From NCBI GenBank assembly GCA_964017155.1, contig OZ024855.1, forward strand, positions 5,006,190-5,070,189: a stretch of DNA of 64,000 nt, given 5' to 3'. A model generated the notes under the pieces. That model was not told where the DNA came from and made no database searches. It was given only the letters and a program-made list of their open reading frames with translations. The position numbers and the translations under genes are program-made. The stretch is from Oasisia sp. SBJ-2009. Taxonomy: Eukaryota > Annelida > Polychaeta > Sabellida > Siboglinidae. Positions 40 through 64,000 of this stretch are shown piece after piece; position 1 is the stretch's first letter, and each line of letters opens with the position of its first letter.

Positions 40-3000
40 ACAAGGACGAGTGTGTGGACGGGTCGAGTCCGTGCGGTGACGACGGCGTGTGCAACAACAC
101 CATCGGAGGGTTTGAGTGCAGCTGTCGCCCAGGAAGCGTCCTGACACCCAACAAAAGATCCTGCACACGTACGTATTATCGCTCAGACGACATAGCTCTG
201 TCACTTAGTTAATATTTACAGCCTGCTCGAACAGTATTGTCTGCTGACATGTTGTTGTGGTAAATGTTTCCGTTTGTCCGGTCAGTTACCGAACGAGAAC
301 GGTCTGAAAACATCTTGTGTTTAATATTTAGGCTACAGCTTCTCCGGACGAGTACTGATGTGATAGCTGTCTCCTGGACCTGGTGTATTGCAGTTAACAT
401 TTGCAACCTAGCCTGCAAGAATCAGTACTGAGGCGAGAACTGTATCCTGACATGTCATTGTGATTACCATTTCAGCCTGCCCGGTCGGCTACTGGGGCGA
501 GAACTGTCAAAACCTGTGCAAGTGTAATTCGCTGTCGACGCCGTGTGACCCGGCGACTGGCTGCGAGTCGTGCTCGGTCGGCTGGACGGGCGGCGACTGT
601 TCCCTCGACAGGAACGAGTGCGAGGAAAACAACACGTGCGGCAGCCACGCGAGCTGCACGAACGAGCCCGGCACGTACTCGTGCCACTGCGCCGAGGGGT
701 TCTACCGGGTCAACGACATCTGCAAACGTGAGCGCTCGTGTTAATTTTGTAAATTTGTCAATGGCGTACACTTTACGGTCACCTGGATAATACGACCAAA
801 TTTGTCAATGGCGCACACCAGACCCTCGCTTTACGGTCACCTCCGTAATCCGACCACCTGGCAATTACGGGACAGGCCAAAAATTGTTTTGTAGCAATAC
901 CGTATGTGAAACTACTCTCGCTGTTGGTGTTGCTTTTCCCCAGTCCTGGTGATGATCTCAATGGTGACGGTCTGTGCGTAGGTCACGCTTTATTCCTACC
1001 ACTATCCGTTATCATTACTGTCTATCATTACTCTCCCATGTGAATACAAACACGTGTAAATTCCGATGAGAGCAGTAAAGATTACTCACAAATTACCGGG
1101 TTACATTACTATGTATGTTACCAAAAAAATAGCATTCAAATACCATTGGTACTTGAATGGTATTTGAATGGTACTTGAATGGTCCTAGGGGGTATTATGG
1201 CCAAGGATATTTGAATGGTATCTGAATGTTTTTTAATTATATTTTGGATTCTTTGTACCGTCCAGTGGTATCGAATGGTATTTTATATTACCGTTGAGTG
1301 TACCACTGAGTCCTGCCGAAATATCATTGAATGGTCAAATGGTACTGAATGATACTGAATGGTATTCAATGGTAATCAGTGGTATACCATTGGCTCTTTT
1401 TTGAAAGGGCTGTTGGTCAGTCCTTAGTGTCAGTTGATATGTGTCACATTGTCGTGTACGTTAACGCCATGTTTGTCCCCCGCAGCAATCGACGAGTGCG
1501 CCAGTGACCCGTGCCAGAACTTTGGATGTTGCAACGACACCCACCTCGGCTACACGTGCAAGTGTGAGCCTGGCTATACCGGCATGCACTGCGAGACAGG
1601 TATGACTGGCACACAAACGGTGTGTTACGGATGTATACAATAACGTGTTTGTCCGCTATTACTCTACCAAAGAGTACCCTATAAAACAGCATTATGCTTG
1701 GTTGCTTAGGTTGTCTGAATTTCTGTGATGACATATGTAATGTAGAGTGAGTAAAACTCATGCTTTTGTTCAGCGTAGCATCGGAGCTGTCAAATTACGA
1801 CACATGACAGTCCGTGTTTTATCTGTGTATTGTCACTTGTTTCACTTGGTGATGTCAACACGACAGATCACTGTCTGGTTGTAACAGGAATGAAGGGATG
1901 TCAGGTTTAAAAATGGTTTTAAAGTGGTTCACAAATGGCGCGAAACTGAGGTATTCGAATTTGAAGAATTGTCCAGGGCACGTCTGTAAGTTGACGTTAT
2001 ATGTGCTGTGAATTGTTCGATAACAGATGTATTTAAATTGTATAGGAAATTAAGGAAGTTTTATGATGGTCGCCGATGGAAAAGTCAAACGTGGTCTTAG
2101 GTTTACAATGCTGAGTGCAATTTGAAGAACTTTGAGTATGCCTGTGTTACCGTAACATATCACATCAGTAGGTAAACCTACATCGACTGAACATAATATA
2201 ATATAATACTGGTCTGTGTTGTCCCTGACCCGTGGGTGTTCCGGTAAATGTCCACATTTAGCATTCTTACTACATTTTTGCATTTTCAGAAATCAATGAG
2301 TGCGAAACGTTGAACGAAACCTGCCTGCACAACGGACAGTGCGTGGACAAGGTCAACAGGTTCGAATGCAACTGTAATTCGATGTACAGTGGCACGATCT
2401 GTCAATACGGTATGTATCAGATTATAGATATATGTGGAGACACATCCTATTAGAACGATGCGGGTCCCGTATGTGATTAACGTTATACGTTCTACCAGTA
2501 CGAAACGTGCTAAGTGTATGGTTAGCAGTAACACTACATGATGTCACAGATCATTTAGATTACGTAGACGACGTACCCGTTAACTTGAGGGTTACACCCA
2601 ATGATGTTGCTATCCTGACATGATGTAGCTGAAAATATATATATATATATTGTTTTAGGTGTTTTGCTATTAAAATGGGACATTGTTGTTTGTGCAGGTC
2701 GAGTTGACACTACTGAGGCGCCGACAACGAACGAAACAACAACAGAGGGTAAGTGTCTCACTATACCTATGAACACACGTGCCTCATTCGTTATACCATC
2801 TCAGTAACTACCCCAACCACCACCTCTATCATTCAGCTCTAATGATGTTATCTACCAGTAGCCAGTAGCATGGCTATTGCTACCTCTTTTATAGCATCAC
2901 CGCCGCCACTTGCATACTTCAAAATATTAATATCCACCACTGATATATCCCCTCTCTTACTTGACCGTATCTTCTCTCATTCAACTGTGTCTCCTGTCAC

Positions 3001-4138
3001 TTGACCGTGTCTTCTCTCACAACTTAACCGTGTCTTGTCTTACTTAACCGTGTCTTCCATCAATTGACTGTGTCTTCTCTCACCTAACTATGTCTTTTCT
3101 CCCCTAACTATGTCTTCTCTCACCTAACTATGTCTTCTCTCACCTAACTATGTCTTCTCTCGCCTAACTATGTCTTCTCTCACCTAACTATGTCTTCTCT
3201 CCCCTAACTATGTCTTCTCTCACCTAACTATGTCTTCTCTCCCCTAACTATATCTTCTCTCACCTAACTATGTTTTCTCTCACCTAACTATGTCTTCTCT
3301 CACCTAACTATGTCTTCTCTCGCCTAACTATGTCTTCTCTCGCCTAACTATGTCTTCTCTCGCCTAACTATCTCTTCTCTCGCCTAACTATGTCTTCTCT
3401 CGCCTAACTATGTCTTCTCTCGCCTAACTATGTCTTCTCTCACCTAACTATGTCTTCTCTCGCCTAACTATGTCTTCTCTCACCTAACTATGTCTTCTCT
3501 CACCTAATTATGTCTTCTCTCGCCTAACTATGTCTTCTCTCACCTACCTGTGTCTTCTCTCACCTAACTATGTCTTCTCTCGCCTAACTATGTCTTCTCT
3601 CACCTAACTATGTCTTCTCTCGCATGACGTTTTCTTGTCCTATTTGACCGTGTCGTTTCGTACATGGCTGTCATATCTAACTTGACCGTGTCTTCTCTCA
3701 CATGACTGTGTCTGTTGCCAGCTGGACCCGAGAGGAAGCTCTTCCCCCTGCTTCCCGTCGTCCTCGGCACGCTCCTCGGCATCGTCTTTGCCATTCTCAC
3801 CATCATCCTCATCACCTACTACTGCTGCCCGGGCTGCTGTTGCTTCTTCCTCGGCGGCTCGAGCTCGAGTTCCTCCACGGACGACGACGACTTGTCGACG
3901 ACGGCAACCGTGCCTAGTTTCGCCGGCATACCTCGGCCTCGCTGGATGCACTGGTACCCGAGCGCCCAGCGCTACCTGCCGCCGGCCACGCCCTCCGACA
4001 AGCCGTCCGGCTACGACATCTCGCGCATGGGACAGATCAACCGGGCCTTCAGGGTCAACCCGCCAGTCGTAAGTGGTTTGTTGTCTCACCATTACGTAAT
4101 AACGCGTCTCTGTCGACCTGTTTTATGTAGCTATCGGG

Positions 4139-4237
<99 letters not shown>

Positions 4238-5872: not shown

Positions 5873-6950
5873 ATGGACCGACCAGTCCCTGACGACAGCG
5901 CACAGCAAATGCACATCTCGACAACCAAACGAATACGAATTCCGAAGGAACCGACAATAATAAACTCTAGTTTGCAAAGACATCATACAGTATATTGCCA
6001 TTAGTTTGTAGTCACTGATGCATAATATATATTTTATTATTTGCGGGCAGATTACAAGTTATGTTTTTTTATACAATATTATCATAAATGGTATTAGTGG
6101 TGAGCAACTCTTGACAATTGGCACAGTTTACAAGGATTGTGTCAAAATAAAGAATTTTAACATACAAATATTTTTTAGGTTTAACTAAATTGTTTTAACT
6201 ACTGGGGTTAATGGGTACAATCGACAACTATGTATTTTATCACACCACGTTGTGCCTTAATTTAATTGCGATAATAGCAGAATTTATGTTTAACCATCTG
6301 ATATTCTATGTGACGCGCCTTTTTTAATATCCAGAGATTAGCATTATAATTTGCAAAGGTGCTTACTAGTATTTGTCTTGATTTATGTTGTAATGTTTCT
6401 GTCATTTATAATGTAGAGCTATTGCAATTTCCAAATATACTACTTTGGCGATGGCACGAGTTATGTGGAGATTGAATAATAACATCATTATTGTAATAAT
6501 TTCGGGAAACAATACGGGTTTTTAAACCTTTGTGTCGGCATGTGAATGTTAGGATGTATTCTAATTACGTTTTTATAGTATACGTATCAGCTACGTTTAA
6601 ATGAAAATGCGTGAAAAATTATTTAAATACTAAACATATTATCTATTAATGCCACATAATGTGTGTTAACAGTGTCGTACAATGCAAGATAAATAATAAT
6701 AACTTTATTTAAACACTTAAAATGATACTGTGTTTTAACGCTTAATATTCATTCAGATGGATGCAACATGTATGGAAGCTGTTTTATATCAATAGTGTGC
6801 ACGTTCAGCCTGTTTCTAATAGCTAATAAAATGCAATGAAGCTTTGTTATATTGTGTTATTTTGCATGTCACTTATCTGCGTCGAATTATTTGGCTCTAT
6901 ACTTCGTCGCTACTTCCTCCTTCCAGGTATTCTAGACACAAGTTCCCACG
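5873..6950 (+). other. 3' UTR and intergenic stretch of the EGF-domain gene
   Basis: AT-rich sequence after the TAA stop at 5870-5872, with no coding potential seen. Candidate polyadenylation signals AATAAA occur at 5959-5964, 6146-6151 and 6825-6830. Which one is used cannot be told from the sequence. Confidence 0.5.
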
Positions 6951-6956
6951 TTGTAA

Positions 6957-7757
6957 TTGCTGTCTATGCATGTAGCAAATACATGTGATGCAGGAGACGT
7001 TGGGAGGCAAATAGACACTTGCTGTTATTTCTTCTCCAGGGTCTCCTCAAGTGACAACCAGTTCCATTTATCTTGCTCTATCTATAAAGAGGAGGATATA
7101 ATGGTTGATGGAAACAAGCTTAACTCTGTTATGGAATTCACCTACATCGGAAGCACTATATCAAGTGATGGATGCATTGACGATGAAATACAGAGGAGGA
7201 TGGCCAAGGCTAGTGCATCTTTCGGCCGACTACGCCAGAGACTCTGCAACAACCACCATGTGTCCATGCGGGTTAAAGGCAAGATATACCGTGCAATTGT
7301 GCTGTCCACCCTCCTATATGGAGCTGAGGCCTGGACAGTGTACAGACGACAGGTGAAAAAGCTCCATGCCTTCATGATGCGACATCTGCGTTCGATCATG
7401 AAGATAACCTGGATGGACAAAGTGACAAACAAGGAAATATTAGAACGTACAGGGCTGCCATCTATGGAAGATCTTCTGATCAGAAAGAATATCCGGTGGA
7501 CTGGACACCTCATGAGGATGTCACCAGACAGACTACCGAAGCAGGTTCTCTACTCTCAACTGTCTTCTGGTCACAGAAAGAGAGGGCGCCCTCGTCTCCG
7601 ATTCAAGGATACCATCAAGAGAAACCTGAAGATGAGAGACATAAAGATCGACTCATGGACATCACTCTCACAGCGGAGAGACAAATGGAGAGCAACAGTT
7701 AAGTGATGGAAGCAGTCTTTGTCGCTTTGCGACCGACAGCATGATGATGATGATCTA
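6957..7757 (+). mobile_element. 5'-truncated LINE, C-terminal part of reverse-transcriptase ORF
   Basis: An open frame ends TGA at 7704-7706. Its protein has the standard tail of non-LTR polymerases: FTYIGSTISSDG, DEIQRRMAKASASFGRLRQR, then LLYGAEAWT, then RWTGHLMRM and KRGRPRLRFKDTIKRNLK. The catalytic palm motifs are missing because the copy is truncated on the 5' side near 6950. About 30 bp past the stop is an (ATG)n-type tail (ATGATGATGATGAT, 7741-7754), which is typical of RTE-like elements. The frame is nearly intact, so the copy is young, but it is a fragment and cannot encode an active polymerase. Confidence 0.85.
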
Positions 7758-8498
7758 TAAAGTAGTCTGGTTACATTTAGAGGTCGTGTTAATGTTTGAA
7801 ATTATAATACTTGTGTTGATAATTTGCATATACATAGTAGCCGGTGGCTCATTTTGCACAACTCGGCCTATTTCCAGCTATTATACTCGCTTTGATTCCG
7901 ACTCTATTTGGAGTTCTGCTATGCAACTTACTTAGGGACTAAGATAGTTCACATTTTGCCATTCCAATAACTACCTAGTGTGTTGGCATATACCTATTTG
8001 CATAAGTTAACACGTCTAACATTACGAGTGTATAAGTTTATTAGACAGAGATTATTGACAACAATACCAACACTACAAATATGTATAGGTGAATGTGAGG
8101 TTTACAAGTTACTTTTGCTGTCAACAAGTTACTTTTGCTGTCAACGATTCGCACAGTTTCATGGATTCCATCGTCGTCTTCTAACGACTTTAGAGTGTCG
8201 ACGTATTGCACCATAAGGACACATCGATTAATCCGGAAGACAAACATAGTAAATCGTTAAACGAAGACATTATTCCCCACATCTAATTGAAGGACTTGGT
8301 CGCTGGGTTATCTGTCCGAATCATTATCTTATTGCAGCGCGGATTCGCCGTTTCTTCCTCTGGCGGACTGGTGTAGTTTCTGGCAAAGTTTGAAAACCGA
8401 ATATTAAACACGTGTAAAGTAATATGAATAAATACTCACGCCCATACGGACACGCATGTACACATACATATATTAGCTGGATTATAAAATAGAGTAAC
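7758..8498. other. intergenic, no gene seen
   Basis: AT-rich unique-looking sequence. The only structure noticed is a 20-bp tandem doublet (AAGTTACTTTTGCTGTCAAC) at 8105-8144. Confidence 0.5.
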
Positions 8499-8758
<260 letters not shown>

Positions 8759-8782
8759 CCGACTTAGTGGGTATTCGGGAGA

Positions 8783-10831
8783 CTAGTCCTTACTTTCTGT
8801 AATGACTGTCATAATTTCGCCCTCAGCGGCCGTGGATTCGCTGATGTTTGGCCAATGGGCATAGAACACGTTCCTGCTCAAGTCGTGTGTCTTGTGCGAT
8901 TGTCGCTTCTTTTTTGAATGATCGAGATGTTCGCTGGGATCCACTTTAGCTGCTGCTGTACGGTGGTGTTTCACGTGGTGCTTTTTCGTGGATGAATGTC
9001 TCGATGTTACGGCCGATGAACCTTCCAATGAGACTGTCGTGTCGACGACATCAGAACCCTGATCATCTGTTGCCTGCTGTGAAGACGCCACCCTTGTCGG
9101 CTCTGGTCTTGCCTTTGTCGTTGCCGTCTGCGATTTTGGCGAGTTTCTGTGCGAGTGTTTCTTCTTGTCTCGCGTGCGCTTTTTCATTATTGAAGACGTT
9201 GATATATCATCTTCTTCCTTAACGGAAACACTCGCAGGGATGTCGGTTCTTTGCGTTACTCCCTTAACGGAAACACTTGCAGGAATGCTATTTCTTTGTG
9301 TTGTGGTGGCAACTGGAAATTTTCGTTTTGGTTTTAAATCGCTCGTGGCTTGGAATATTTCAGTGAATTTGACCGTCTTGGCATCCTTATCCTTCAACTT
9401 CGAATAAAACCAAAACATCCCCGTCGTTCCGTGTTTGGCAGTTATAGTTTTACTCCTAAAATGGCCGGTTCGGATATGTCCTTCTTTAACTTTATTTATT
9501 TCCATGTGGGACTTCAGAATCTTGTTCACAAGCGCAGTTACATTTATTCTTTCGTCCATGATATCTGTATGCGAGTGGGGTTTGACGTGCTTATTTCTGA
9601 GCCGTTCGAGTATTCTCCTTGAGCTATGATGTTTCGTGTGTGGATGTGGTTTTACGTTGGCGTGTATTCCCGGGCTGGTGTGTTTTTCGCCTTCCTTCGT
9701 CGCGATATGTGTGCTGTTTTCGCGCCTCGCCTCAACGTCTTTCACCTTCTTCATTTCGACGGTGTCACTGGTTTGGTCGCTACCTCCGACGGGCTGAGCT
9801 AGACGTGTGGTGGTCCTGCGTAGGCGTCGACCAGTGTTTCCAGGCGTCAATTCATGTCGTCGACTTCCTTCTCGAGTAACGTGTGCAGTCCGTCGATCAT
9901 TGTCATCTTCCTTAGCTGTGCCAACTCCGGCGTCATCATAAGCACCGCCGTGCTCGCTGCTATTTCCGGTTGCGCTGTCTTCCCTGCGTCGAGTCCAGCG
10001 AAAGGGAGCGGGTCGTCCGTCTCTGCGTGCACGCTTATATCCACGCCTGTCTTTTTCTTTGTCTCCGCGCGCAACCTCCCGACGCTTGGACTGCAGTGGC
10101 GCAAAATCACCACGCACGATTTTCTGAAGCAGCTTCTTAAGCAACTCACCGTCTTCGTTCTCCTTGGCCGGCTTGTGCGGCGACGCGTGACGGCGGACAC
10201 TCCGTTGGCGGCCGCGGCGGCGACGACGTAAGTCAGCGACGGCGTCGGGCACGATCATGCTGGCGGGGGCGGCGGCCCACTCATGCTGTCTCCAGCCGGC
10301 GTCAGACACCGCCGGCTGCTCCGAAGGTCGCTGTGCCGTTTGAGCGATCGTCTTGTTCGCCTTCTTGAGGAGCGTGGCGAGGTGGTGTCGAACTTTACTG
10401 GCGATCATCTCCGTCACACGCTCGGTGATGCGCGCCTCCAGCAGCCGCAGCAGCTTCTTGGACTTGCGCAGGAAGGCTTCGTCGAGAGCCGACGTCGTCG
10501 TAGTCTGACCGGCGCTCGCGTTGTTCTGCACTAACCGGATGTTGATGTCGAACGACGTCTCGCTGCCGTTCGTTATGCTGCCGCCATTCGACACACTAGC
10601 CTTCACGACAGCGCCCCCTGCCGGCTGAGGGGAAGGCCCAGTCGTCGTCTCTGCCGTCGACACGGTCGTCGTGGCTGATGTCTTCTCTCCGAAAGGCCAC
10701 CAGGCGCGTGCGACGCGTTTCTGCTGTGCAAGGACGTCGTCGACGTCATCCGACAAAACTTGTTTGGATAACCTGTGAACAAGACGACATTTCGCTGAGG
10801 GAACTTTGCGTTGCATGTTTTGGTCGAACAA
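8783..10831 (-). CDS. large basic, disordered hypothetical protein (probably one long exon)
   Basis: A 682-codon frame stays open over 2 kb. The first in-frame ATG is at 10816, and the frame upstream begins only at a TTG. A possible acceptor (TTGTTCACAG) ends near 10772, and a donor-like GAAA-GTAAGG overlaps the last codons, so it may be an internal exon. The product is rich in Lys, Arg, His, Ser and Thr. A predicted helical stretch lies near residues 118-165 ([22 protein letters not shown]). There are Arg-rich blocks (RRRRRGRQR), a repeated [16 protein letters not shown] motif and a duplicated IPASVSVK motif. I do not recognise a domain, membrane segment or signal peptide. The length and biased composition argue for real coding over chance, but function is unknown. 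Confidence 0.55.
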
Positions 10832-10912
10832 CTACACATTGCCGTAATTTATGCCAGGGTTGGATATTTGCCGGACAAAAAGGGATTGGCACAGGAATTG
10901 CGAATGTTTTAT

Positions 10913-12207
10913 TTATAGAATACGTTGTCAATATCGTTGCATACCAATCGATCTGACTACCTCTACGAGTACACTATTATGACTACAAGTGCATTTATAT
11001 TATAGTAACACGATGTGTACAAGACTTCCATTATTGCCCTTATCTCTGCTAATTAATGCCCTCGTCTCTACTGTCACTCCCCTCGTCTCTACTGTCACTC
11101 CCCTCGTCTCTACTGTCACTCCCCTCGTCTCTACTGTCACTCCCCTCGTCTCTACTGTCACTCCCCTCGTCTCTACTGTCACTCCCCTCGTCTCTACTGT
11201 CACTCCCCTCGTCTCTACTGTCACGTCTCTACTGTCACTCCCCTCGTCTCTACTGTCACTCCCCTCGTCTCTACTGTCACTCCCCTCGTCTCTACTGTCA
11301 CTCCCCTCGTCTCTACTGTCACTCCCCTCGTCTCTACTGTCACTCCCCTCGTCTCTACTGTCACTCCCCTCGTCTCTACTGTCACTCCCCTCGTCTCTAC
11401 TGTCACTCCCCTCGTCTCTACTGTCACTCCCCTCGTCTCTACTGTCACTCCCCTCGTCTCTACTGTCACGTCTCTACTGTCACTCCCCTCGTCTCTACTG
11501 TCACGTCTCTACTGTCACTCCCCTCGTCTCTACTGTCACTCCCCTCGTCTCTACTGTCACGTCTCTACTGTCACTCCCCTCGTCTCTACTGTCACTCCCC
11601 TCGTCTCTACTGTCACTCCCCTCGTCTCTACTGTCACTCCCCTCGTCTCTACTGTCACTCCCCTCGTCTCTACTGTCACGTCTCTACTGTCACTCCCCTC
11701 GTCTCTACTGTCACGTCTCTACTGTCACTCCCCTCGTCTCTACTGTCACTCCCCTCGTCTCTACTGTCACGTCTCTACTGTCACTCCCCTCGTCTCTACT
11801 GTCACTCCCCTCGTCTCTACTGTCACGTCTCTACTGTCACTCCCCTCGTCTCTACTGTCACTCCCCTCGTCTCTACTGTCACGTCTCTACTGTCACTCCC
11901 CTCGTCTCTACTGTCACTCCCCTCGTCTCTACTGTCACTCCCCTCGTCTCTACTGTCACGTCTCTACTGTCACTCCCCTCGTCTCTACTGTCACTCCCCT
12001 CGTCTCTACTGTCACGTCTCTACTGTCACTCCCCTCGTCTCTACTGTCACTCCCCTCGTCTCTACTGTCACTCCCCTCGTCTCTACTGTCACTCCCCTCG
12101 TCTCTACTGTCACTCCCCTCGTCTCTACTGTCACGTCTCTACTGTCACTCCCCTCGTCTCTACTGTCACTCCCCTCGTCTCTACTGTCACGTCTCTACTG
12201 TCACTCC
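10913..12207. repeat. 21-bp minisatellite with unique 5' flank, copy 1 of a duplicated block
   Basis: From about 11059 a 21-bp unit (CTCCCCTCGTCTCTACTGTC + A) repeats for roughly 1.15 kb, interspersed with 14-bp truncated units that lack CTCCCCT. The 146 bp of single-copy flank (10913-11058) and the first 778 bp of the array recur at 17542-18465 with a constant offset of 6629 bp and the same order of full and truncated units. The array is open in all three frames of the + strand and in one or more of the - strand. Those frames (LVSTVTP, TVETRGV) are artefacts of unit length. Confidence 0.95.
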
Positions 12208-13144: not shown

Positions 13145-13149
13145 GTTCT

Positions 13150-13745
13150 TGTTACAACCGATAATGTAATAATCGCCCGTTAATGTAATAACTGCCCGAT
13201 AATGTAATAAAATCAACCGATAATGTAATAACCGCCCGTTAATGTAATAAAATCAACCGATAATGTAATAAACTTGCTACCCGATAATGTAATAATTTTC
13301 GCCCGTTAATGTAATAACGTACATATTTCACGTAGGACTTAGTCGTTTTCGTGGATTTCATGTTGATTTCTTGCACTTAGTCCATTTTTTCTGTCGCCTA
13401 TTTCGCAATACTGCCATGTTTACTAATGGGTAGTAGTAATCTTTTTAGATTAAATCCAATATGTTGATTCCAAACCTGAAGTTAGATTTGTTAGGTCAGG
13501 ATTTTGAGTTATACATTTTCGCACCACGTTATACATTCTCGCACCATTTACGAATGACGGTTTGCTATAATGTTAGGGTATCTAATGCCGCAGGCTTGGT
13601 GTTCGCCAGTTCGATGCTAGTTTGAAAGCCAGGTTAAGAAATGGTTGATTAAAGAATGTTTTATTGAGGTTTTATTACGTAGTTTGTTGACACTTTCGTG
13701 TCCACATATTCTCGTATGAAGATTTATCGATCAAATTATATATGC
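13150..13745 (+). repeat. left terminal inverted repeat
   Basis: Starts TGTTACAACCGATAATGTAA, with about nine subrepeats of the form CCGATAATGTAATAA or CCCGTTAATGTAATAA to 13317. Then comes a conserved arm including TTGTTGACACTTTCGTGTC near 13685, matched in reverse complement by the right arm. Confidence 0.85.
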
Positions 13746-13756
13746 ACACACATATT

Positions 13757-13866
13757 TTGCCTAGTTCGTCTATTTTTCATCTATTATATATATATTATAT
13801 ATATATATATATTATATATATATATATATATATAATAGATGAAAAATAGATGAAATAGGCCAAATG
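13757..13866. repeat. hairpin with about 30-bp arms around an AT loop
   Basis: TTTGCCTAGTTCGTCTATTT through CATCTATTA pairs with TAATAGATGAAAAATAGATG through GGCCAAA. The loop is a TA-rich tract of about 50 bp. The hairpin lies just inside the left arm of the big element and may be a nested small MITE. Confidence 0.7.
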
Positions 13867-13944
13867 GCCAAACTGCATAAGATATCACTTCTATAACCTT
13901 TGTCATTTCAATTACCCGAATGTATTTGTCTGTCCGGGTATTTA

Positions 13945-14157: not shown

Positions 14158-14162
<5 letters not shown>

Positions 14163-17541: not shown

Positions 17542-18465
17542 TTATAGAATACGTTGTCAATATCGTTGCATACCAATCGATCTGACTACCTCTACGAGTA
17601 CACTATTATGACTACAAGTGCATTTATATTATAGTAACACGATGTGTACAAGACTTCCATTATTGCCCTTATCTCTGCTAATTAATGCCCTCGTCTCTAC
17701 TGTCACTCCCCTCGTCTCTACTGTCACTCCCCTCGTCTCTACTGTCACTCCCCTCGTCTCTACTGTCACTCCCCTCGTCTCTACTGTCACTCCCCTCGTC
17801 TCTACTGTCACTCCCCTCGTCTCTACTGTCACTCCCCTCGTCTCTACTGTCACGTCTCTACTGTCACTCCCCTCGTCTCTACTGTCACTCCCCTCGTCTC
17901 TACTGTCACTCCCCTCGTCTCTACTGTCACTCCCCTCGTCTCTACTGTCACTCCCCTCGTCTCTACTGTCACTCCCCTCGTCTCTACTGTCACTCCCCTC
18001 GTCTCTACTGTCACTCCCCTCGTCTCTACTGTCACTCCCCTCGTCTCTACTGTCACTCCCCTCGTCTCTACTGTCACTCCCCTCGTCTCTACTGTCACGT
18101 CTCTACTGTCACTCCCCTCGTCTCTACTGTCACGTCTCTACTGTCACTCCCCTCGTCTCTACTGTCACTCCCCTCGTCTCTACTGTCACGTCTCTACTGT
18201 CACTCCCCTCGTCTCTACTGTCACTCCCCTCGTCTCTACTGTCACTCCCCTCGTCTCTACTGTCACTCCCCTCGTCTCTACTGTCACTCCCCTCGTCTCT
18301 ACTGTCACGTCTCTACTGTCACTCCCCTCGTCTCTACTGTCACGTCTCTACTGTCACTCCCCTCGTCTCTACTGTCACTCCCCTCGTCTCTACTGTCACG
18401 TCTCTACTGTCACTCCCCTCGTCTCTACTGTCACTCCCCTCGTCTCTACTGTCACGTCTCTACTG
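17542..18465. repeat. 21-bp minisatellite block, copy 2, inside the inverted-repeat element
   Basis: Matches 10913-11836 at an offset of 6629 bp in the same orientation. It includes 146 bp of single-copy flank and the same succession of 21-bp and 14-bp units. It stops abruptly at 18465, where copy 1 continues for another 370 bp. No difference was noticed by eye, so the duplication is recent, kept alike by conversion, or an assembly effect. Confidence 0.92.
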
Positions 18466-21719: not shown

Positions 21720-24700
21720 TCATAAACTCTTTCTCAAAGGCACTGTGACGACAAGAAAGTCTTCTGCTGCCTCAATGTTCTCACTGCCAAAAGCTGCTTT
21801 CGCCTGCAAGACCAGTTTGTGCACCCCTTCTGGCACCGTGACGTCATCGTCGTCTTCCTGCAGAGGAAAAGAAACCTATTATCAAGGTACATTCAAGAAC
21901 CGCAGTCTGACCAATGTAATAATTATTTTAATTACTTGTACAACACTTACACATTAAGAAATCAGGACCCAGGGGCACAACAAACAAGACTCGTTAGGTA
22001 AAATTATTATCAACCATACGCAAAAGTCGTTAGAGGATTGGACCACTGATGTTTTACAACTAGTCTGCAATTGTAAATATAACAAAATGGTTTGTGTTTA
22101 CTACGGAAATAGCTATAATTTCAGAACAGTTCAAAATTTATTCCAGGTTTTGGATGCAGCTACAGAAAACATAGTCATATTTGGCTATGCTTAGGAACAA
22201 CAAATAGCGAGACAGGCGAACTGTGCTGCTTATTTGAATAAAACAGGAAACATGCCAAATGCGTTGCATATTATGTAGAAAGGGCACAATATCCAATAAA
22301 GGGTATGTATCCTGGCATAACGTTACTCACAACAGAGTTGAGCACCAACCTTGTTTAACTGTGAAGCTGGTCGGTACCGCTGGCTGAAGTGAGTCAGGAT
22401 GAGTTTTCTAGCGTTTATTTGACGTGCAAATCTTCCTGCCATTCCTACAAAGAATAGTTTCAAAAAAGTTAGTTTAGTATTTTTTTAAATTATTTCATAT
22501 AGGTAATCAAGTCGTTAGACAGCATGCCAATTGTGTACATAACATAATAATGATTTATGAATGACATAGCGGTGGTACCAAATTAATGTTTTACAAAAAC
22601 TGTTTACTTTCCGTAAAGAGAAACTTAAATGAAACAGCACAGTCGTTTCTCAAGTAGCTTATAAAAACAAATCACACTCAATGTTGTGTTGTGTTGGCTG
22701 GCTGGAATATATAGTGAATGAGAGTTCCACCTACACCACATCGCATGAATCGGTGACACTTAAGAACATAATAATTTTGATTTTATGCCATTTGAAAGAC
22801 TCCAATAATTGTTAAAACAAACAAAAAGTTAGTTGAGTGCATTGGACAGAAACAAGACATGAGGTCGACGCTACAGGCTGATTGGCCGAGGGCAAGGGTA
22901 ACGTTCTTGTCACTGGTCAACGTGTACTTCACCAGCTAGTGAAGTGTGTATGACACTGTTCAAAGCAGGTAAAAACAGACAACGAGTGAAACAGTTATTG
23001 AGCTGCCGACCTGCCGTGGAGTGACCTTTCTCTGCAGCACTCTCGGCCATCTCGTCCTCCAGCGTCGCCTCATGGACAAGCAGATCAGCATCTTGACACA
23101 GTGGTGCCATCTGGCAACTGTCACATGTGTCACCTAGAATGATGACCTTCCGACCAGACTGTGGCGGACCAACCACATCGACAGGTCGTATCTGAACACA
23201 TTGTTAAAGAACACATCCGAGACAAAAATAAGAATTGATGTCTTGCCAGGTGTTTCAATTTTTCTCAAACACACACACACCACACGCACTCACTCACACA
23301 CACACGCACGCACGCACGCACGCATGCACACACACTCACAGTAGCTTAGATACAAATAACTTCACTGACAAAGGATACTGTTTCTCCATCAGCTGTTGTG
23401 ATGCTCTCACCCGCCTTGATCTTGGCGTAAAGTGGCCCCGGTTTGACTCCTTTTGCCTTTAGTGCAAGTACGTCCAACCTACACATGTTTGAGATTAAGA
23501 CGAAGGATAAACGTACAGTAATATCACCTCTCAATCAGGTCACATGCAGTTTATATCACAGATGAAGATATAGCAGTACAACTCAATCATGCCATTCATG
23601 TTTGACATCACAGACAAATCTCAGTCAGGCCGTTCTGACAGGCGACAAACCTACTTGCAATGTCTGACATAGATCATTCGCGGAACGTTTTAGGAGCTTT
23701 GCAAATTTAACAAATAAATTATAAGTACTTCGTTACATTTAGAAAAAGTACACACATTTGTACTTCGTTACAAGTAGAAGTACTTCCCAAAAAATTTACT
23801 CTGTTACTCAAGAAAAGTAAACTTTTCTACTTAAGTAAAGTAACGAAGTAAATGTACTTTGTTACATTACGGCTCTGGTGACCGTTGCAATGATGTGTGA
23901 TGGATCTACTTGCAAAGATGTATGATATACCCACTCGCAATGAAGTATGACTGATCTAGTTGCAATGATGTGTGATGCACCTACTTGCCAGGAAGAGGAC
24001 TCTCTGTGATGACGTAGCCGTAGCATGGAATTCGGTGCTTCAGCCAACTCGCCTGCACTGTCAGACCCCCCTCACAGCAGCTGTAAGACAACAATCCACA
24101 CTCACAAGTCATCACAGCGAAATCTCTTCGTCCTTTCAAAACTCCTATATTACAATAACTATATATAATTATGCATGAAACAATATTCCTATTCGTCATA
24201 CTCTGCCGGTCTCCAGACGTTTCTGTTCCACATTATCATATGTGGCTTTACTGGATAGAGTTACAATTATGGGTATAAAATAATAAAACATAGTCATCCA
24301 AGACCGTAACCACTGAAGTATGCCCCTTCTGTTTATGATCCTTTCCCACAGTCAAAGTAATTCACTACAGCCCTGGTTGGTTTATGGTTGTGACTTACAT
24401 GTCCCAGACATGTTGAGAATCTGGTTCAATGTCACTTCCAGCCTCTTCGTTTGGATGCATCTCCTCTGCTGTGGTCGTCTTGTCAGTGTCCCACTCCTAA
24501 AATTTGACATGGTATTGTGCCAGGTTGAAATATACAATACTGGGTATAATTAGTATACCAGTGCCAAGGAAAGCAAAACACCATTGCTCCCAATAATAAC
24601 ATCAATATAATAATGGACATTAAACATGAAAATGTGATGTGTATAATATTGTACCATTTTGATTAATAGTACCCCATTCGTGTGACATGTTTATTTATAT

Positions 24701-28471: not shown

Positions 28472-31400
28472 TCACTCGTATAAGTCCATCAGAGATTTGA
28501 TTGTTAGACACCTGTAGAATTCAGCGATGCTAATATGTTTGTCCCAAGCATGAAACAGTAACACTTTCTTTGGTTCCACCATGATGAATCCATTGTTGGA
28601 GAACCGGCCCCTGATGGTGGGTGTCTCGAGCCAAACAAATGGAGCAATCGAATCTGTTGTGAGGTTGATGCTCAGTGTCTGTGGGTCAACTTGTGTGACG
28701 TTTGTTACCTGAAACAGAAAATAAATAAAGTAAATACTGATTAAAAATCCATCTCAGTGGAATTTACAGCACAAAACAGCAATTGCAAAATGTATACACA
28801 GTATCACAAGAAACATACAGCAACAGTGTATTAAGACTTGAGAAAACAGTTTTGTTAACAAATAATAACAATACAATTTGTTTAACAAATGATGACAATA
28901 CAATAATATCTTCCATCAAATCTAGACACTTACAAAGCTTGCTTCTTTCAAAAGACTTCTAAAATCACACCTGTTCCATGTTGCTGTCGGCTTGTAGCTG
29001 ATACTGTTTTATGTAAAGAATGTTGTTAACCAAAATCTGATATTACGAAGTGTCTATCAATGGCATGAAGTAGATCAATGAATAAGTAGATATAGCACAA
29101 ATTGTAACAATTATCAACACAAAAATAATGCATAGTGAATTCAATTCCAAAACCATATCTATATTAACACTCATCAGATAGCATTGAAATGTATTTAATT
29201 TTAATGTCTAAATTTTATCACATAAATAATCAAGCTGATATTTTTATTAATTGTGACTCATTTGTTACCTTACCTTGAGTAAAAACCTGTAGGTCAACAG
29301 CTGTGGTGACGTCTTACCTTGAGTGAAGCCTAGTGTATGTTGACACCTATAGTGAGATCTTACCTTAAGTGAAGCCTTCTGTAGGTTGACAGCTGTGATG
29401 AAGTCTTACCTTGAGTGAAGCCTTGTATAGGTCGAGAGCTGTGGTGAAGTCTTACCTTGAGTAAAGCCTTGTATAGGTCGACAGCTGTGGTGAAGTCTAA
29501 CCGTGAGTGAAGCTTTGTGTAGGTTGATAGCTGTGATAAAGTCTTATCTTGAGTGAAGCCTTATGTAGGTGATGAAGTTTTATCTTGAGTGAAGCCTTGT
29601 GTAAGTCGACAGCTGTGATGAGGTCTTACCTCGAGTGTAGGTTGACAGCAATGGTGAGGTCTTAACTTGAGTGAAGTATTGTGTAGGTTGACAGCTGTGA
29701 TGATATCTTACCTTGAGTGAAGCCTTGTGTTAGTTGATAGCTGTGGTGAAGTCTTACGTTGAGTGAAGCCTTGTGTTGGTCAGCAGCTGTGGTGAGATCT
29801 TACCTTGAGTGAAGCTTTGTTCAGATTGAGAGCTGTGATGAGATCTTACCTTGAGTGAAGCCTTGTGTATGTTGACAGCTGTGGTGAGGTCTTACCTTGA
29901 GTGAAGCCTTGTGTATGTTGACAGCTGTGGTGAGGTCTTACCTTGAGTGAAGCCTTGTGTATGTTGACAGCTGTGATGAGATCTTACCTTGAGTGAAGCC
30001 TTGTGTAGGTTGACAGCTGTGGTGAGGTCTTACCTTGAGTGAAGCCCTGTGTAGGCCGACAGCTGTGGTGAGGTCTTACCTTGAGTGAAGCCTTGTGCCG
30101 ATTGACAGCTATGGTGAGATCTTACCTTGAGGGAAGCCTTGTGCACATTGACAGCTGTGGTGAGATCTTACCTTGAGTGAAGCCTTGTGTAGGTTGACAG
30201 CTCTTGGTGAGATCTTACCTTGAGTGAAGCCTTGTGTATGTTGACAGCTGTGGTGATATCTTACCTTCAGTGAAGCCTTGTGTATGTTGACAGCTGTGGT
30301 GATATCTTACCTTCATTGAAGCCTTGTGTATATTAACAGCTGTGATGAGATCTTACCTTGAGTGAAGCCTTGTGTAGGCCGACAGCTGTGGTGAGGTCAG
30401 AGAGCAGGAGCCAGTTGGTGGCGAAGTCTCTTCCAGACTGCTCCACCCTGAAGTGGAGGAAGCAGTGCTCACGACCCTCACACCCGCACTGCGACAACAT
30501 GGACGTCACACTCATCCGAGCCACTTCATGGGATGGTAGATGTGGCTGAAAACAACATACATTGTTGATAAATTCATGACAATCGTGGTTGTTTAGATGA
30601 ATAGACGAAGAGCATTTAAGCAATAGGTATTAGCTTGAAGTCATTTTGCTCCCAAGGATTTGGAACATAGCATATTTTCATATAGACTTCTGCAGTTCAA
30701 ACATAGCTTTATTTTGAAGAAAATATAACAATTGATAAAAACATGTTGGTTACAACACTGCCAGAAGTATCACAGTCCTCTATCAGGCATATACTAGTAG
30801 AAATATATGTATTGCTATATTAAATACAAACGGGAAAAAATCAAACAAAACAACATGACCAGGTTGAAATGTTGTAAACCCTGTACTAAGTTATTAGTCT
30901 AACAATGCTGACCTACAACATACACTAAATTAATTATAAAATGTTGTCCAAAAATTTCTCATTTTGAATCAAATTTTTAAATAATATAACTGGACTAGGT
31001 TTTAAAACAATTTCCCATTCAAAAAATCAAATAACTCTGAAAAACAATAACAAAACAACTACTTTTAATTTACAATAAATCCATAAATAAATATAAATAA
31101 GCATAGTAATAGTGGACAATCTTACTAAGAGCTTAATCTAAATGATCTGGTTACTTACCTTTGAGAATGTCTTCTTCCAAGAATACGAGGGTTTTAAGTT
31201 ATTCCAGTGGAAACAGTGAATGTATAGCGTGATTTCTGGTTTGTCTTGGTTGGTCTCTACTGAGTTGTCTTTCCATTGGCTGTGCATCTTCAGTGTTTCA
31301 GAACGTTTCGATGTCTTATCTAAATAGTCGTGATCTTTATGTAGTGTGAAATACTCTTCTTGTTCCTCAGTCAACACCAGGGTCTTCTCTAGCTCAGTTG

Positions 31401-34400: not shown

Positions 34401-37400
34401 GAAAACGCCTTATATTTGGTATCAAGATGGCTCCCACACAAAACATGCAGATCACGAACAACCAGATGATTGAAGATAGATAAACAAGACATGACTATAA
34501 TAAATTAGAGTATGTCATATGATATATTAAACTCTGGACTCCAAGGAAGTGATAAAACCTGAATTAAAATTCAATCATTTGGCTGTTTTATGTATTACTG
34601 TGACAATTAGAAATTAAGTGTCTTAGCAGTGGCACACAAAGCTGCCCTGATACTCACAGTCTCCATATCTCGGGTCCTTCGGGTCGACTGAGACCCACCC
34701 CTCATGCAGTGTCGTCTCTAGTCCATTTGAAGGACTTGACAGTACAAATGGTCGTGACGTGTCTTCAGTCAATGCTATCTCACGCACGACGTTCACATTG
34801 AGGGTCACATAGTCTTGGTAGTACTGCTTCCACACGTGTTGCCCACGGTAACTGGTGAATGAAGTGCCAGTCAATGTTACTCTTACGTTTCAGTTCACCA
34901 TGTCAAGTCACATCACAGATTCTGTTTAAGGTATTGTGTTGTTTCTCAAGTGGGTAGACTCTATATGATGAATATGCAGCATACATGGCTAAAATATGGT
35001 TATATAATCATGTATGTATAGCAGCAGTATAATCACCCTAACAAAATGCTGTATAATGCTAGCGTGTCACCAATGTGCCTTGATTAACTATCACTTGACA
35101 CACAGAAGGTGACAAAGCCTGTAAGGAGCAGTGGTTGTGCGGTAGAGCGTCGGACTGTCAGTCGAGAGGACAGTGGTTCAATCCCACCTACCGCCGTTTA
35201 GAAACTTAGGCAATTTAGTTCAACCCACATTTGCCTGTGTCTTTCGGAAGAGACACTAAAAGCCGGTGGTCCCTTCTATCTGGTGTATATGCCAGGGGAA
35301 GTAAAAGATCCCACACATGGGGTAAATGTGTAACATGTAGTGGACTCAATAATTCTAGAAAGAAGGACAACTCCTGCGTTAGCCCAAGTTTGGGCTGTTT
35401 CAAGGTAAACCACCTAAGACCTAAGTATCACAAGTCAACCACCTACTGGTTCAACTCCTCCTCATTCTCGTTGTTGCCGGCCCACAGCGCAATAGACGGG
35501 TGATGTTTGAGACGTCGAATCTACAACAGCGACAGAGTCATCCATGTGAGATACTTCAGTCAACACATCCACAACTACACAACTGTGATGCACAGCTACA
35601 GTGCACTGGCCTAGAAGTTAGCATTGTCATCAAATGTTGGTCATTAACAAGCTTGATTTGGTAGGTGTTTTAAAACATGTCACAATTCAAAAGAAATACT
35701 GTAATAAGTAATAATACTGACACAAAATAAAAACTCATGTTGTGGCAGTTACTGATTTGACACATCAAATACATAACTGATGTTGACATCATTCACAGCA
35801 CCAACACCATTAAGATACATGCTAACAGCTGCTCAATGCAATGCATTACCTACTAGCCCATGACCGTGCATACAAACTCAAAATGCTGGTCTACTGACAG
35901 GCAATCAGATGTCAGCAAAAGCGCCCCTTCAACCAAATCAAGAAAGCATAGTACGGTGAATATGAATTTAAATATACACAAAACTGTTTGGTCATCAAAT
36001 GGAACCAGTGTGACATCTCCCTGATGACAATGTTCATAACCAGAAGTTGGGTTAAATGCTGCACTTCCTTATCCTTGAATGCATGCATAGCTGGGACTTA
36101 CATTTCTAGCTCAAATATAAATTTAGAAACTGAATGATATTTCGATCTTGTATATACAGTGGACCCTCACTAATAATGTCACCCCTGCGCCTGGGCAATG
36201 GTAACCTGAATAGCAAGATAACCGGGACTAATTTCCTATGCATTATTGTTATAAAATAATTTGTGATTGTCACAGGGTGAACTTAATTTGGAGGTGGCTG
36301 CATTGGTGAGCTGACTAAAGTAATGCTCAGCTGTAACAAATTACTGATGATCTGAGTGAAATGTCATTAATATAAAAAAAACAGTGTTGATTACTAAAAC
36401 CTTATTGTCCCCACATCCTTAGAGTGACCTGTAAAGTCCAGTACCTGATGGGTGATCTCAGACTGGACGTTGGTCAGGAACGACTGGTCAGTGGGATAGA
36501 GAGAGCACGCAAACATGAAGTCTTGCCACAGGAGGATGCCCAGCTGATCAGCCAGGTCATAGAAGTGGTCCGACTCATACACCTGCAACACACCATGGAT
36601 AACACACTTACTAACACACCTGGAACACAGCACAGATAACACACTTACTAACACACCTGGAACACAGCACAGATAACACGCTTAGTAATACACCTGGAAC
36701 ACAGCACAGATAACACACTGAATACACCTGGAACACAGCACAGATAACATGCTTACTCATACACATGGAACACAGCACAGATAACACACTGAATACACAT
36801 GGAACACAGCACAGATAACACACTTACTAACACACCTGGAACACAGCACAGATAACATGCTTACTCATACACCTGGAACACAGCACAGATAACACGCTTA
36901 CTCATACACCTGGAACACAGCACAGATAACACGCTTACTAACACACCTGGAACACAGCACAGATAACATGTTTACTAACACCCCTGGAACACAGCACAGA
37001 TAACATGCTTACTCATACACCTGGAACACAGCACAGATAACACGCTTACTAACACACCTGGAACACAGCACAGATAACACGCTTACTCATACACCTGGAA
37101 CACAGCGCGGATAACACACTTACTAACACACCTGGAACACAGCACAGATAACACGCTTACTAACACACCTGGAACACAGCACAGATAACACGCTTACTCA
37201 TACACCTGGAACACAGCACATATAACATACTTACTCAGAGACGTGGAACATACCACATATAACACACTTACTAATAGACCTTGAACACACTACAGATAAC
37301 ATATTATCTGCAAATGGAACATCCCATGGATAACGCGCTTAGTCATACACCCTCCAGCCTCTGCAACATGTGATCACCCAATCATCCTATACCCATAACA

Positions 37401-40400: not shown

Positions 40401-42341
40401 ATACTGAGAACATAATTGAGCAATTGCGCTAATAAGACTACCAAGGTATTAGTGAGATTGTTCCTTGGTGACCACACTACCTGGTGGTCCTGTAGTCAGG
40501 TACCTGCAAGGCTTTCTTCACGTCAACCACATATCTCCTGAACATGTTGTCTGTGTTCGCTATGGCCTGTCCATTCACAGACACAGTTGCTACAGTGTCA
40601 ACGCCTTCCAGCACTAGCTGCACAACATGATGTTGGAGAAAGTCATCTGAAACTGGGGAAAACCAGGCTCATATATACTTGAGCAGCAACTGCCAAACAT
40701 CAAAATTTAACAACATTTCCAGGCTTCTCCATCCATGCTTGTGTTAAAAACCAACTTATGTGTTGGCACTGGAGTTAAACAAAAAACATACATTATGGAA
40801 CAATCCATAGGCAGGAGATACCATTGTTACAGTATTTTGATGTTTATACAGCTCTTCCCCACATTGTCGCCCCTGGAGAGAGGTTTGCCAGTCATAGTTG
40901 CCACATGTGGAACACTGAAACATTTTGGTGTCTGCCATTTCATTTAAGAAAAGTTATAATTTGACTTCCAGGCTTTCCTCTAGCTTTTATAAATCCATGG
41001 CTCTCAATAACCTGACTTTTAACCAATACTATACCATGCTATTCAAAGATGTGCATGTCTTATATGAAACATGTGAAAGATAAATTGTAATGTGTAATAA
41101 ATTCACTTCACATTTTCAAATCCCCACCACAGTGAGCACTGGCTAAATTGTCACATGCATTTTTATTTTTGAAATTGGAACAGAAAATCTGGTTACGTTG
41201 AAATGATCGGTGAAATGTCCAGTTTTCATAGGCAACCCATCGATAGTTGAGACTGTTGTTTCTGTTATAGGGATCATCGATTATGCCACTGTTCAGCAAG
41301 TCTGTATAGATACTGCCTGGTATTGTGGCTGGCACTGTGATACCTGCAATTGCAAAGAAAGCGAAATACAATAACACTATTTCATCAATTTATACATTAC
41401 AGTGAAGATGCCTGTTATACGCTAGAAATGCAATAAATTACAATACATATGAGTACCGTAACAAGTATAATTATTTACAAAATGAGTGTAGTTCAATATT
41501 AAAACTTGTTCTTGTTATGCATAAAATACCATGATGGCAGTGAGTCTATACAATATATTTTTAATGACGGGAGCTATGATAGTAACCATCATTGTATCAG
41601 ATAAAAAACATGCATTAACAAACTATTGTATAAAAGTGACATAAGAACACTGGTACGTAATTTTTCATTAGCATACTTAAAATGTTCATTAGTTATATGG
41701 TCGTAACCAGAGGATTTTCCAACTGGCATAGTCAATATTATTTCGTGTAGTTCTATAACTTTAACAACCATATGATCATTAAATTGAATACCGGCTTATA
41801 CCGCTACAGTACATATCAATCTTGTGAACGTGAACAGAACTAGTCAGATATAGAATTAAGCAGCGATTGGTAATGATGATGATGATATAAAAAATTATTT
41901 ATATATATATGTGTGTGTTGCTCATTAATGGTATGACTTGTCCTAGTAGCAAAGAAAAAATTCATGTAAAAAAAGAATAATAAAATTTACATCCATGAGG
42001 ATGACATGCATGGCCAAAGTTTCATTTACAAACATGCCACGAAATCCCTGTTCTATGAATGGACTCTACTTCCAATGCCAATGGCGGTAATTTTGGTAAT
42101 CGTCCGCTTTGCCCTGGTTTGGGTTGCCTTAGTGTATGAAAGTAAATATGTGGCCTTGGCCTGGCCATGGCCCTGCCCCTGGCCTGGCTTGGGCGCACCG
42201 GCCTGGGCCTTTTTAGCACTTACTTCCGTTACGGTTACATACTGTCCATTTTCCATTTAGCGTGATACTTGTCAAGCACAACACTGTATTTGTAAAGCAC
42301 AGAAATATAAACAGCCGAAGCACGTTTGTGACAAGATTCAT
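28472..42341 (-). CDS. MANBA: lysosomal beta-mannosidase (GH2)
   Basis: Eighteen coding exons, in order: 42341-42224, 41343-41197, 40646-40504, 40096-39897, 39143-39076, 38749-38574, 38208-38046, 37630-37464, 36582-36445, 35520-35447, 34851-34658, 33938-33759, 33476-33379, 32722-32575, 32047-31872, 31479-31159, 30545-30357, 28708-28472. Total 2937 bp, 978 residues plus stop, with all phases closing. It removes terminal beta-mannose from N-glycan-derived oligosaccharides in the lysosome. Seen: a signal peptide (residues 1-22, hydrophobic [10 protein letters not shown]), the [10 protein letters not shown] segment, [16 protein letters not shown] loop, acid/base Glu in GNNENE (about Glu458), nucleophile Glu in RFASEYG (about Glu553), and [14 protein letters not shown]. 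It is roughly 100 residues longer than the human protein (879), largely from exon 16 (107 codons, acidic and Ser-rich insert). Introns 8 and 17 carry splice-junction arrays. The start is shared-promoter divergent with COPA. Confidence 0.95.
29270..30356 (-). repeat. 46-bp array repeating the MANBA exon 17 end and its donor
   Basis: About 24 copies of a 46-bp unit directly downstream of exon 17 on the gene strand. The exon ends CTACACAAGGCTTCACTCAAG, then GTAAGATC. Array units read CTACACAAGGCTTCACTCAA + G, then GTAAGATC or GTAAGACC, so about 30 exonic bases and the donor are repeated. The units nearest the exon are the most alike, and distal units are more diverged. Confidence 0.92.
35118..35400 (+). 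repeat. tRNA-derived SINE in MANBA intron 10
   Basis: The tRNA-like head has an A-box region (GTTGTGCGGTAGAGCG) and a B-box (GTGGTTCAATCCC). It is followed by a conserved body (TTTGCCTGTGTCTTTCGGAA, GAGACACTAAAAGCCGGTGG). A second member with the same body lies at 62518-62830. Confidence 0.8.
36583..37330 (-). repeat. 37-bp array repeating the MANBA exon 9 acceptor
   Basis: About 17 clear and 3 decayed copies. On the gene strand the exon starts TTGCAG-GTGTATGAGTCGG; array units read TTCCAG-GTGTATGAGTAAGC or -GTGTGTTAGTAAGC. The 12-base CAGGTGTATGAG is thus shared between many units and the true junction. Each unit presents a pyrimidine-flanked CAG. Confidence 0.9.
39625..39772 (-). repeat. 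tRNA-derived SINE, second family, in MANBA intron 4
   Basis: On the - strand GTGGCTCAGTGGTTAGAGTG (A-box type) is followed by CTACATTCAGTTGTATAAAT and ACCTGGCTACAGACAGTGGT. The same body (TGTATAAATGAGTACCTGGC, TATAGACAGTGGTG) occurs at 59735-59905 in COPA. Confidence 0.75.
41589..41790 (-). pseudogene. LINE reverse transcriptase fragment (N-terminal palm)
   Basis: A frame on the - strand reads [20 protein letters not shown], then [12 protein letters not shown], the fingers/palm entry region of non-LTR polymerases (GKSSGYD is the usual K(A/S)xGxD motif). It is truncated on both sides, within MANBA intron 1. Confidence 0.75.
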
Positions 42342-42659
42342 TGTGCACTGCGAATTGAATTAAATCCTGTGTGCAATAAACAAGATAGCAAATTTACCGA
42401 CACAACAAAAGTATAGAATTGATCACATGATTAATCACGTGATGAGTATACTCTAACATCGAGTGCTACCTGGTGAGCATTGTATAACCACAGTTTCATC
42501 AGTTATCCGGTAGATGGCAGCACATTACCGTCCGCCATATTTGCTCCACGTCAGTTGCACCGTGGCTGGCAGTTTTTGACATAAGAAATTAACCAGACAG
42601 TACATTGAAAGTGTAACTGTTAATGATTACGACCACATCTGACTCAACAAAAGGCGAAA
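42342..42659. promoter_or_regulatory. bidirectional MANBA-COPA promoter region
   Basis: 318 bp separate the two divergent ATG codons (42341 on -, 42660 on +). Seen: TCACATGA at 42423-42430 and TCACGTGA at 42435-42442, the latter the core of the CLEAR/E-box motif recognised by TFEB-type factors at lysosomal genes, 82-101 bp upstream of MANBA. TCCGCCATATTTG at 42531-42543 resembles a YY1 site. No TATA box is evident for either gene. Site function is inferred from motif identity and gene type. Confidence 0.6.

Positions 42660-64000
<21,341 letters not shown>

Follow-up and report, generated by a model that had tools for sequence, protein, structure and literature searches.

Mirage-like tandem arrays at exon-intron junctions of a 64-kb genomic stretch and the candidate decoy splice sites they carry

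Introduction

Do the tandem repeats in the introns of one 64-kb stretch of DNA copy the exon edges beside them, and do they arise at exon-intron junctions oftener than expected by chance? The stretch, called the window below (C2:5006190-5070189), belongs to an assembly whose 33 contigs total 764,102,534 bases. The genome is made up of 14 chromosome-sized pieces: contigs C1 to C14, of 42-71 Mb each, hold nearly all of the assembly, and C15 measures 11.5 kb. Repeats across splice junctions, called mirages, have been described in the amphioxus globin genes BflGb6 and BflGb9, with Adh3 and other loci cited alongside (PMC3087553), and also in PGBD5 and troponin C (PMC3902484). According to the globin report, the units measure 10-72 and 150-160 bp, lie at 5' and 3' boundaries, show length instability and are homogenised in their interiors; RT-PCR found regular splicing despite the mirages, and their mechanism is called unclear (PMC3087553). 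The original prediction suggested that the arrays of the window may belong to this class, and the match with both descriptions bears it out.

Genes and arrays in the window

Four genes were modelled, giving 54 introns and 108 junctions with GT-AG in all (Table 1). The ELAC1-like, MANBA and COPA models were obtained by spliced alignment to human proteins. The COPA model is open for 1,053 codons up to the end of exon 27, and residues 557-1049 of coatomer alpha in the PDB align with its last 493 residues. PDB matches were also found for pieces of the beta-mannosidase and ELAC1 models, and Pfam found EGF domains in the EGF gene model; in the same Pfam search of the gene models, one MANBA piece had no match. 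Two introns are uncertain: MANBA 4, where an exon is missing and the frame is lost, and ELAC1 3, which may conceal an exon. The head-to-head arrangement of MANBA and COPA, with roughly 330 bp separating the coding starts (42332-42660), suggests a promoter region in common. Searching the window for tRNAs and for Rfam families (at the gathering threshold) gave no matches.

Several other features lie around these genes. The stretch 10913-11836 recurs at 17542-18465 (924 bp, 100% identity) and takes in much of a 21-bp tandem array, and 13150-13317 recurs inverted at 19594-19427, also at 100% identity. These perfect intergenic duplications may reflect recent rearrangement or an assembly error. A dispersed repeat with 87% identity is shared by MANBA intron 9 (35147-35373) and COPA intron 26 (62527-62741). 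The minus strand carries a low-complexity, basic, S/T-rich open frame of 682 codons (8783-10831), and the plus-strand open frame at 6957-7706 is one that we take to resemble the end of a reverse transcriptase of LINE type.

TRF recovered arrays at the places where the original prediction had put them, and the junctions concerned were sorted by firmness, partly by eye. The firmest class, in which the splice site and at least five exon bases are copied, contains ten junctions, some of whose exon matches are only 7-10 bases long: the donors of MANBA 16, ELAC1 4, COPA 13 and COPA 16, and the acceptors of MANBA 7, COPA 9, 20, 25 and 27 and EGF 1, the last old and decayed. A weaker class, with only the splice site or an abutment, or with doubtful copies, is formed by the COPA 12 and 14 donors and the COPA 16, EGF 5 and COPA 5 acceptors. 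The predicted count of ten, probably twelve to fourteen, introns agrees with ten copied junctions plus four or five weaker ones, and the predicted use of both junction types with four donors and six acceptors whose splice site is copied. Copies in all four genes had also been claimed; they are present in MANBA, ELAC1, COPA and the EGF gene, with the EGF gene as the weakest case. The arrays of COPA 6, 10 and 11, the 30-bp array of COPA 12, the EGF 2 arrays and minor arrays in MANBA 10 and MANBA 16 were rejected as junction copies.

Table 1. Positions of the modelled genes and of the arrays at or near their junctions (window coordinates unless a stretch is named)
Feature	Position	Strand	Description
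EGF-repeat transmembrane gene	about 44-4122	+	modelled by eye
ELAC1-like gene	about 26988-21720	-	spliced alignment
Beta-mannosidase gene (MANBA)	about 42332-28472	-	spliced alignment
Coatomer alpha gene (COPA)	42660 onward	+	spliced alignment
EGF gene intron 1	267..475	+	about three strongly decayed copies of exon 2 start; acceptor 475/476
EGF gene intron 5	2953..3721	+	20-bp array 98 bp upstream of acceptor; weak
ELAC1-like intron 4 donor array	23885..23988	-	25-bp unit, about 4 decayed copies; donor 23985; first of 54 introns
MANBA intron 16 donor array	29288..30398	-	46-bp unit, last 42 exon bases + GTAA; about 24 copies
MANBA intron 7 acceptor array	36579..37301	-	37-bp unit, TTCCAG + about 10 exon bases; about 19 copies; acceptor 36582
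COPA intron 5 acceptor	46251..46321	+	one upstream copy of exon bases +9 to +30; AG absent from copy; weak
COPA intron 9 acceptor array	48052..48985	+	41-bp unit, TTGCAG + about 22 exon bases; about 22 copies; exon 10 start 48964
COPA intron 12 donor array	50072..50123	+	13-bp unit GTGAGTAGGGGGC, four copies; begins exactly at donor; zero exon bases copied
COPA intron 12 internal array	50303..51447	+	30-bp unit; ends 11 bp upstream of acceptor; clear non-junction array
COPA intron 13 donor array	51535..51603	+	15-bp unit including 5-7 exon bases; decoys in frame and open
COPA intron 14 array	52255..52826	+	26-bp unit, 22 copies; begins one base inside donor; abutment only
COPA intron 16 donor	55170..55363	+	single old duplicate, 24 exon bases + GTCAGTC at 55333-55363
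COPA intron 16 acceptor array	55557..56026	+	26-bp unit, 18 copies; reaches to about 8 bp from acceptor; weak
COPA intron 20 acceptor array	58500..59140	+	33-bp unit ...TTACAG followed by AGTCCCTGGCCTACCT, 16 exon bases
COPA intron 25 acceptor	62080..62295	+	five to six decayed copies of GTGCTTGCAG followed by CTGCTGCATGACC, counted by eye; 3 core copies
COPA intron 27 acceptor array	63692..64000	+	44-bp unit, TTTAG followed by GCCCAGCAG; continues beyond the window to exon 28 (window-equivalent 64098)
IQCG-like gene, last intron	L009 6522-6732	-	nine tandem acceptors of about CTGACACTGAGTGTTGTGTTACAG, the real one last, directly at the last exon

Copies of exon edges in their own introns

We used each exon edge together with adjoining intron bases as a probe and asked whether its own intron, with the probe itself removed, beat the 53 other introns. 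With 20 exon and 20 intron bases, 14 of the 108 junctions ranked their own intron first, where about 2 are expected. A probe of 24 exon and 6 intron bases gave 11 of 108 (about 2 expected, P=6e-6), and one of exon bases alone gave 7 of 108 (about 2 expected, P=0.004). With the 30+14-base probe, the own intron was the best of 54 for 10 of 108 junctions against 2 expected, and the corresponding controls gave 3 (reverse complement), 0 (reversed) and 1 (next intron). The controls of the 24+6 probe were equally flat, with 3 for the reverse complement, 1 reversed, 1 for the next intron and 0 for the intron after that (n=108 in each set), and a control probe taken 27-51 bases inside the exon edge ranked its own intron first in 1 of 88 cases. 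The own-intron excess with flat controls indicates that the exon edge recurs in its own intron in the sense orientation. For these 54 introns, the claim of seeding on junctions above chance is upheld.

Individual junctions depend on the probe. The COPA 13 donor is first with the 20+20 and 30+14 probes and not with the 24+6 probe. For the EGF 1 acceptor, the reverse-complement control is equally high with a short probe (22), whereas a long probe scores 37.5 vs 23.5, with control orientations at 22 and 16. The final 20 intron bases of EGF 5 resemble a diverged unit, and this junction is not first with the 20+20 probe. At the COPA 16 acceptor, we found a gapped match to AG and 5 exon bases, with an in-phase AG in 0 of 16 core copies. 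The MANBA 16 acceptor and the COPA 9 donor, both ranked first with the 24+6 probe, were set aside as probably due to chance. The COPA 5 acceptor is at best a weak case of a copied junction and also ranked first in the reversed control.

The array in COPA intron 27 is cut by the window end, and its unit runs from TTTAG into GCCCAGCAG (Ala-Gln-Gln), the start expected by homology for the next COPA exon. This array had been named beforehand as the probable exon 28 acceptor, and the flanking DNA (stretch L009) contains exactly that acceptor at the array end. The own intron of the COPA 27 acceptor ranks first of 67.

This forecast bears on whether the arrays are assembly artefacts, which we consider very unlikely. 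The 924-bp intergenic duplication, whose copies lie 6.6 kb apart, is possibly an assembly error and is a warning that the assembly may affect copy numbers, so that those of near-identical arrays may be wrong. However, misassembly cannot create diverged copies of precisely the adjoining exon edge in many genes, and it cannot predict an unseen acceptor.

Insertion of a dispersed element at splice sites would also place arrays at the splice sites of many introns. Introners are one sequence in dispersed copies. The arrays are like introners in that repeated DNA is tied to introns and splice sites; unlike introners, each array copies its own junction, so that units differ by locus and match their own exon edge. 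The cores of COPA 9 and COPA 20 are largely confined to their own introns (23 copies vs 7 in the 53 others, and 20 vs 5), while the shorter cores found elsewhere discriminate less well, with loose matches in the 53 remaining introns numbering 70 for the 12-base core of MANBA 16, 59 for ELAC1 4, 181 for COPA 12, 136 for the COPA 16 acceptor and 20 for MANBA 7. One unit was searched genome-wide, a 24-mer of COPA 20, and all 17 of its occurrences in 764 Mb lie within the COPA 20 array. We found no sequence common to many unrelated introns, the whole-genome search covering this one unit. An introner-like or satellite element as the source of the arrays is thus extremely improbable.

Apparent seeding at junctions

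To what extent junctions are favoured over other places was judged on a TRF array list compiled blind to junctions. Among its 20 arrays inside introns, seven carry a copied junction as judged by eye on alignments, against 1.41 expected under random seeding with uniform breakpoints over the intron and its edges (P=1.9e-4). Counting COPA 12 and the COPA 16 acceptor as well gives 9 of 20 (P=1.5e-6). A test of the array ends only is weaker than this test of unit content, with 8 of 20 arrays touching a junction where 3.8 are expected (P=0.02). Junctions seem to seed arrays oftener than intron interiors do. The exon share of the units varies from none up to 42 of 46 bases, and the duplication ends therefore look scattered round the junction instead of being anchored at the splice site.

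The excess might arise with no special seeding, if random duplications strike a minisatellite-rich genome and those at junctions are over-noticed, or live longer because the conserved exon copy re-homogenises the array. Arrays are indeed common everywhere: within the window their share is 20% for intron bases and 14% for intergenic sequence, and in 166 kb of unmasked random stretches it is about 5%, with slightly different cut-offs, by hand from TRF for the window and at a score cut of 50 for the random stretches. Several intron arrays also lack a junction (COPA 6, 10 and 11 and the 30-bp array of COPA 12, among others). Over-noticing is countered by the junction-blind list, which still holds far more junctions than random seeding predicts. 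The internal TRF match is 70-98% for junction arrays and 83-97% for interior arrays, with no clear age difference, which makes persistence alone a poor explanation of the junction excess. We regard the reading without special seeding as rather unlikely.

It is possible, and we propose it tentatively, that in an animal outside the lancelets splice junctions are genome-wide duplication hotspots, so that a large share of introns has, at some time, one real site facing many near-identical decoys. The cause would then be tied to the junction itself, through transcription, splicing or a sharp change of base composition.

Arrays outside the window

We fetched nineteen 10-kb stretches at round coordinates, blind to content, and further genes were taken from C2 and C3. 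De novo exon prediction on stretches L009-L028 gave 141 candidates, mostly noise, and the exons used were those confirmed by Pfam or by tblastn with fumarase, plus an exon that we take to be IQCG-like; the gene-bearing stretches L016, L017, L020, L025 and L027 were left out of gene modelling. Three of 24 junctions ranked their own intron first of 67 (P=0.0053), and four of 26 with COPA 27 added (P=0.00057). The genes were partly picked because arrays adjoined exons, and both P values are optimistic, since L013 and L015 were modelled after arrays had been seen beside their exons.

The fibrinogen-domain gene in L013 has two acceptor arrays, with units of TTGTAG and 15 exon bases and of CGCCTAG and 12 exon bases. 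Its exon starts were placed by eye from the reading frame and the homology between its two domains, and the probe for FReD intron 4 was one base off the acceptor that is now preferred. Intron 4 of the fumarase gene (L015 and the adjacent L030) shows a simple duplication spanning the donor, in two copies, which is apparently a newborn mirage. In fumarase intron 5, arrays approach both ends, to about 10 bp at the acceptor and about 25 bp at the other end, and neither has a significant exon match; for the acceptor array, 18 of 196 control stretches and 17 introns did equally well. This intron of 2,089 bp is almost filled by tandem arrays and is probably a GC-AG intron (CACAG, then GCAAGT). The PARP introns in L015 gave no junction copies in the own-intron test. 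The gene adjoining COPA, which we take to be IQCG-like, carries nine tandem acceptors in its last intron; with the 24+6 probe of its acceptor, 16 of 54 introns do as well as its own, and with a longer probe its own intron ranks first (34.5 vs 30.5). A genome-wide process had been proposed, and the fumarase, fibrinogen-like and IQCG-like genes extend it beyond the window, in a sample of few genes on C2 and C3.

Candidate decoy splice sites

Judged by splice-site scores, a real splice site may stand among up to about twenty look-alikes. Strong candidate decoys are denser in introns with junction copies than in others, at 4.9 vs 2.2 per kb for donors and 6.0 vs 2.1 per kb for acceptors. In MANBA 16, the 12-base core has 24 copies with GT intact in 21, and 17 intron sites score at least as high as the real donor (30357). 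In COPA 20, AG is intact in 17 of 20 copies, and 16 decoys score at least as high as the real site. AG is also intact in 16 of 19 copies in MANBA 7 and in 20 of 23 core copies in COPA 9, but the best decoy of MANBA 7 stays below the score of the real acceptor, and no decoy of COPA 9 equals the real site. The predicted decoys are present as sequence, with scores as good as the real site in MANBA 16 and COPA 20 and not in COPA 9 or MANBA 7. Since decoys in MANBA 16 and COPA 20 equal the real site, site choice would have to rest at least partly on context, most simply on exon definition.

Some decoys could instead serve as alternative splice sites, for example adding 11-residue insertions in COPA. 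Their offsets are multiples of three in COPA 20 (17 of 17), COPA 13 (3 of 3) and COPA 25 (3 of 3), the translated inserts are open in COPA 20 (with 1, 5 and 16 copies, an 11-residue repeat) and in COPA 13, and the MANBA 16 and COPA 20 decoys have the high scores given above. However, most unit lengths (46, 41, 37, 44, 26, 25 and 13 bp) are not divisible by three, so that decoy use would shift the frame in essential genes, and three in-frame arrays among about ten are at the level of chance. Amphioxus mirages also leave splicing undisturbed, according to the globin report (PMC3087553). Use of the decoys is improbable in our view.

Beside the real site in MANBA and in COPA stand about 16 sites of equal score, whereas the usual study material is one-base mutations or engineered duplications. 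RNA sequencing alone could tell whether the exon body, the order or the distance decides site choice.

Proposed origin and growth of the arrays

We are confident that the arrays are minisatellites of the mirage type, grown from tandem duplications that span splice junctions. A short segment across a splice junction, 13 to about 150 bp, would be duplicated in tandem, and the extra copies would end up in the intron. The mRNA can stay intact because the exon body keeps one complete junction beside it, and for the same reason such a duplication can be nearly neutral, unlike exon-internal ones. Slippage or unequal exchange may then enlarge the array to about 24 copies. Interior copies would be homogenised, coding selection would pin the exon copy, and outer copies would decay. 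Splicing most likely picks the copy next to the full exon, by exon definition, and ignores the decoys.

Two-copy, many-copy and decayed stages are all present. The predicted range of ages was found, with TRF matches from 70% (ELAC1) to 98% (COPA 14). In COPA 9, MANBA 7 and the COPA 16 acceptor, similarity to the medoid is 0.81-0.85 for the junction unit and mostly 0.86-1.0 for interior units; in COPA 14 and COPA 20, the junction unit is identical to the medoid, and COPA 14 is nearly uniform. Concerted evolution inside with diverged cluster ends is seen in COPA 9, COPA 20 and MANBA 7. An outward gradient of identity from the junction appears in some arrays only, and the unit comparison of MANBA 16 is unusable for it beyond about 16 units, where the phase is lost. 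The claim that the process is ongoing agrees with the near-identical arrays and the fumarase two-copy duplication, which as features of one assembly may point to recent activity.

Relation to known systems

The arrays resemble amphioxus mirages as these are described, with tandem units across intron-exon boundaries at donors and acceptors, many copies that keep AG or GT, and a homogenised interior from which the cluster boundaries are excluded (PMC3087553, PMC3902484). Unlike the loci in those reports, for which regular splicing and somatic instability are on record, ten lie in one 64-kb window, with more in other genes, and they are described here from the sequence of one assembly. The host is probably an animal outside the well-studied lancelets: B. 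lanceolatum and B. floridae are listed with 19 chromosomes, the former with 474.8 Mb (PMC9673378), compared with 14 large contigs and 764 Mb here. In the model of Rogers, as cited in the globin report, introns are gained through tandem duplication of AG/GT proto-splice sites (PMC3087553). Both that model and the mirage reading begin with a tandem duplication carrying splice signals; unlike in the model, existing introns here acquire decoys.

In the open-access literature searched, which holds few subscription papers, we met neither a genome-scale count of mirages nor a test for junction bias, nor any clear case beyond lancelets. What is new here is apparently the array density with a measurable junction bias, and the host, while the kind of array is already known. 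If junctions are duplication hotspots, newborn two-copy cases such as fumarase intron 4 can address the cause. Should the host lie outside the lancelets, mirages would be older or more easily evolved than these reports suggest, which bears on duplication models of intron gain.
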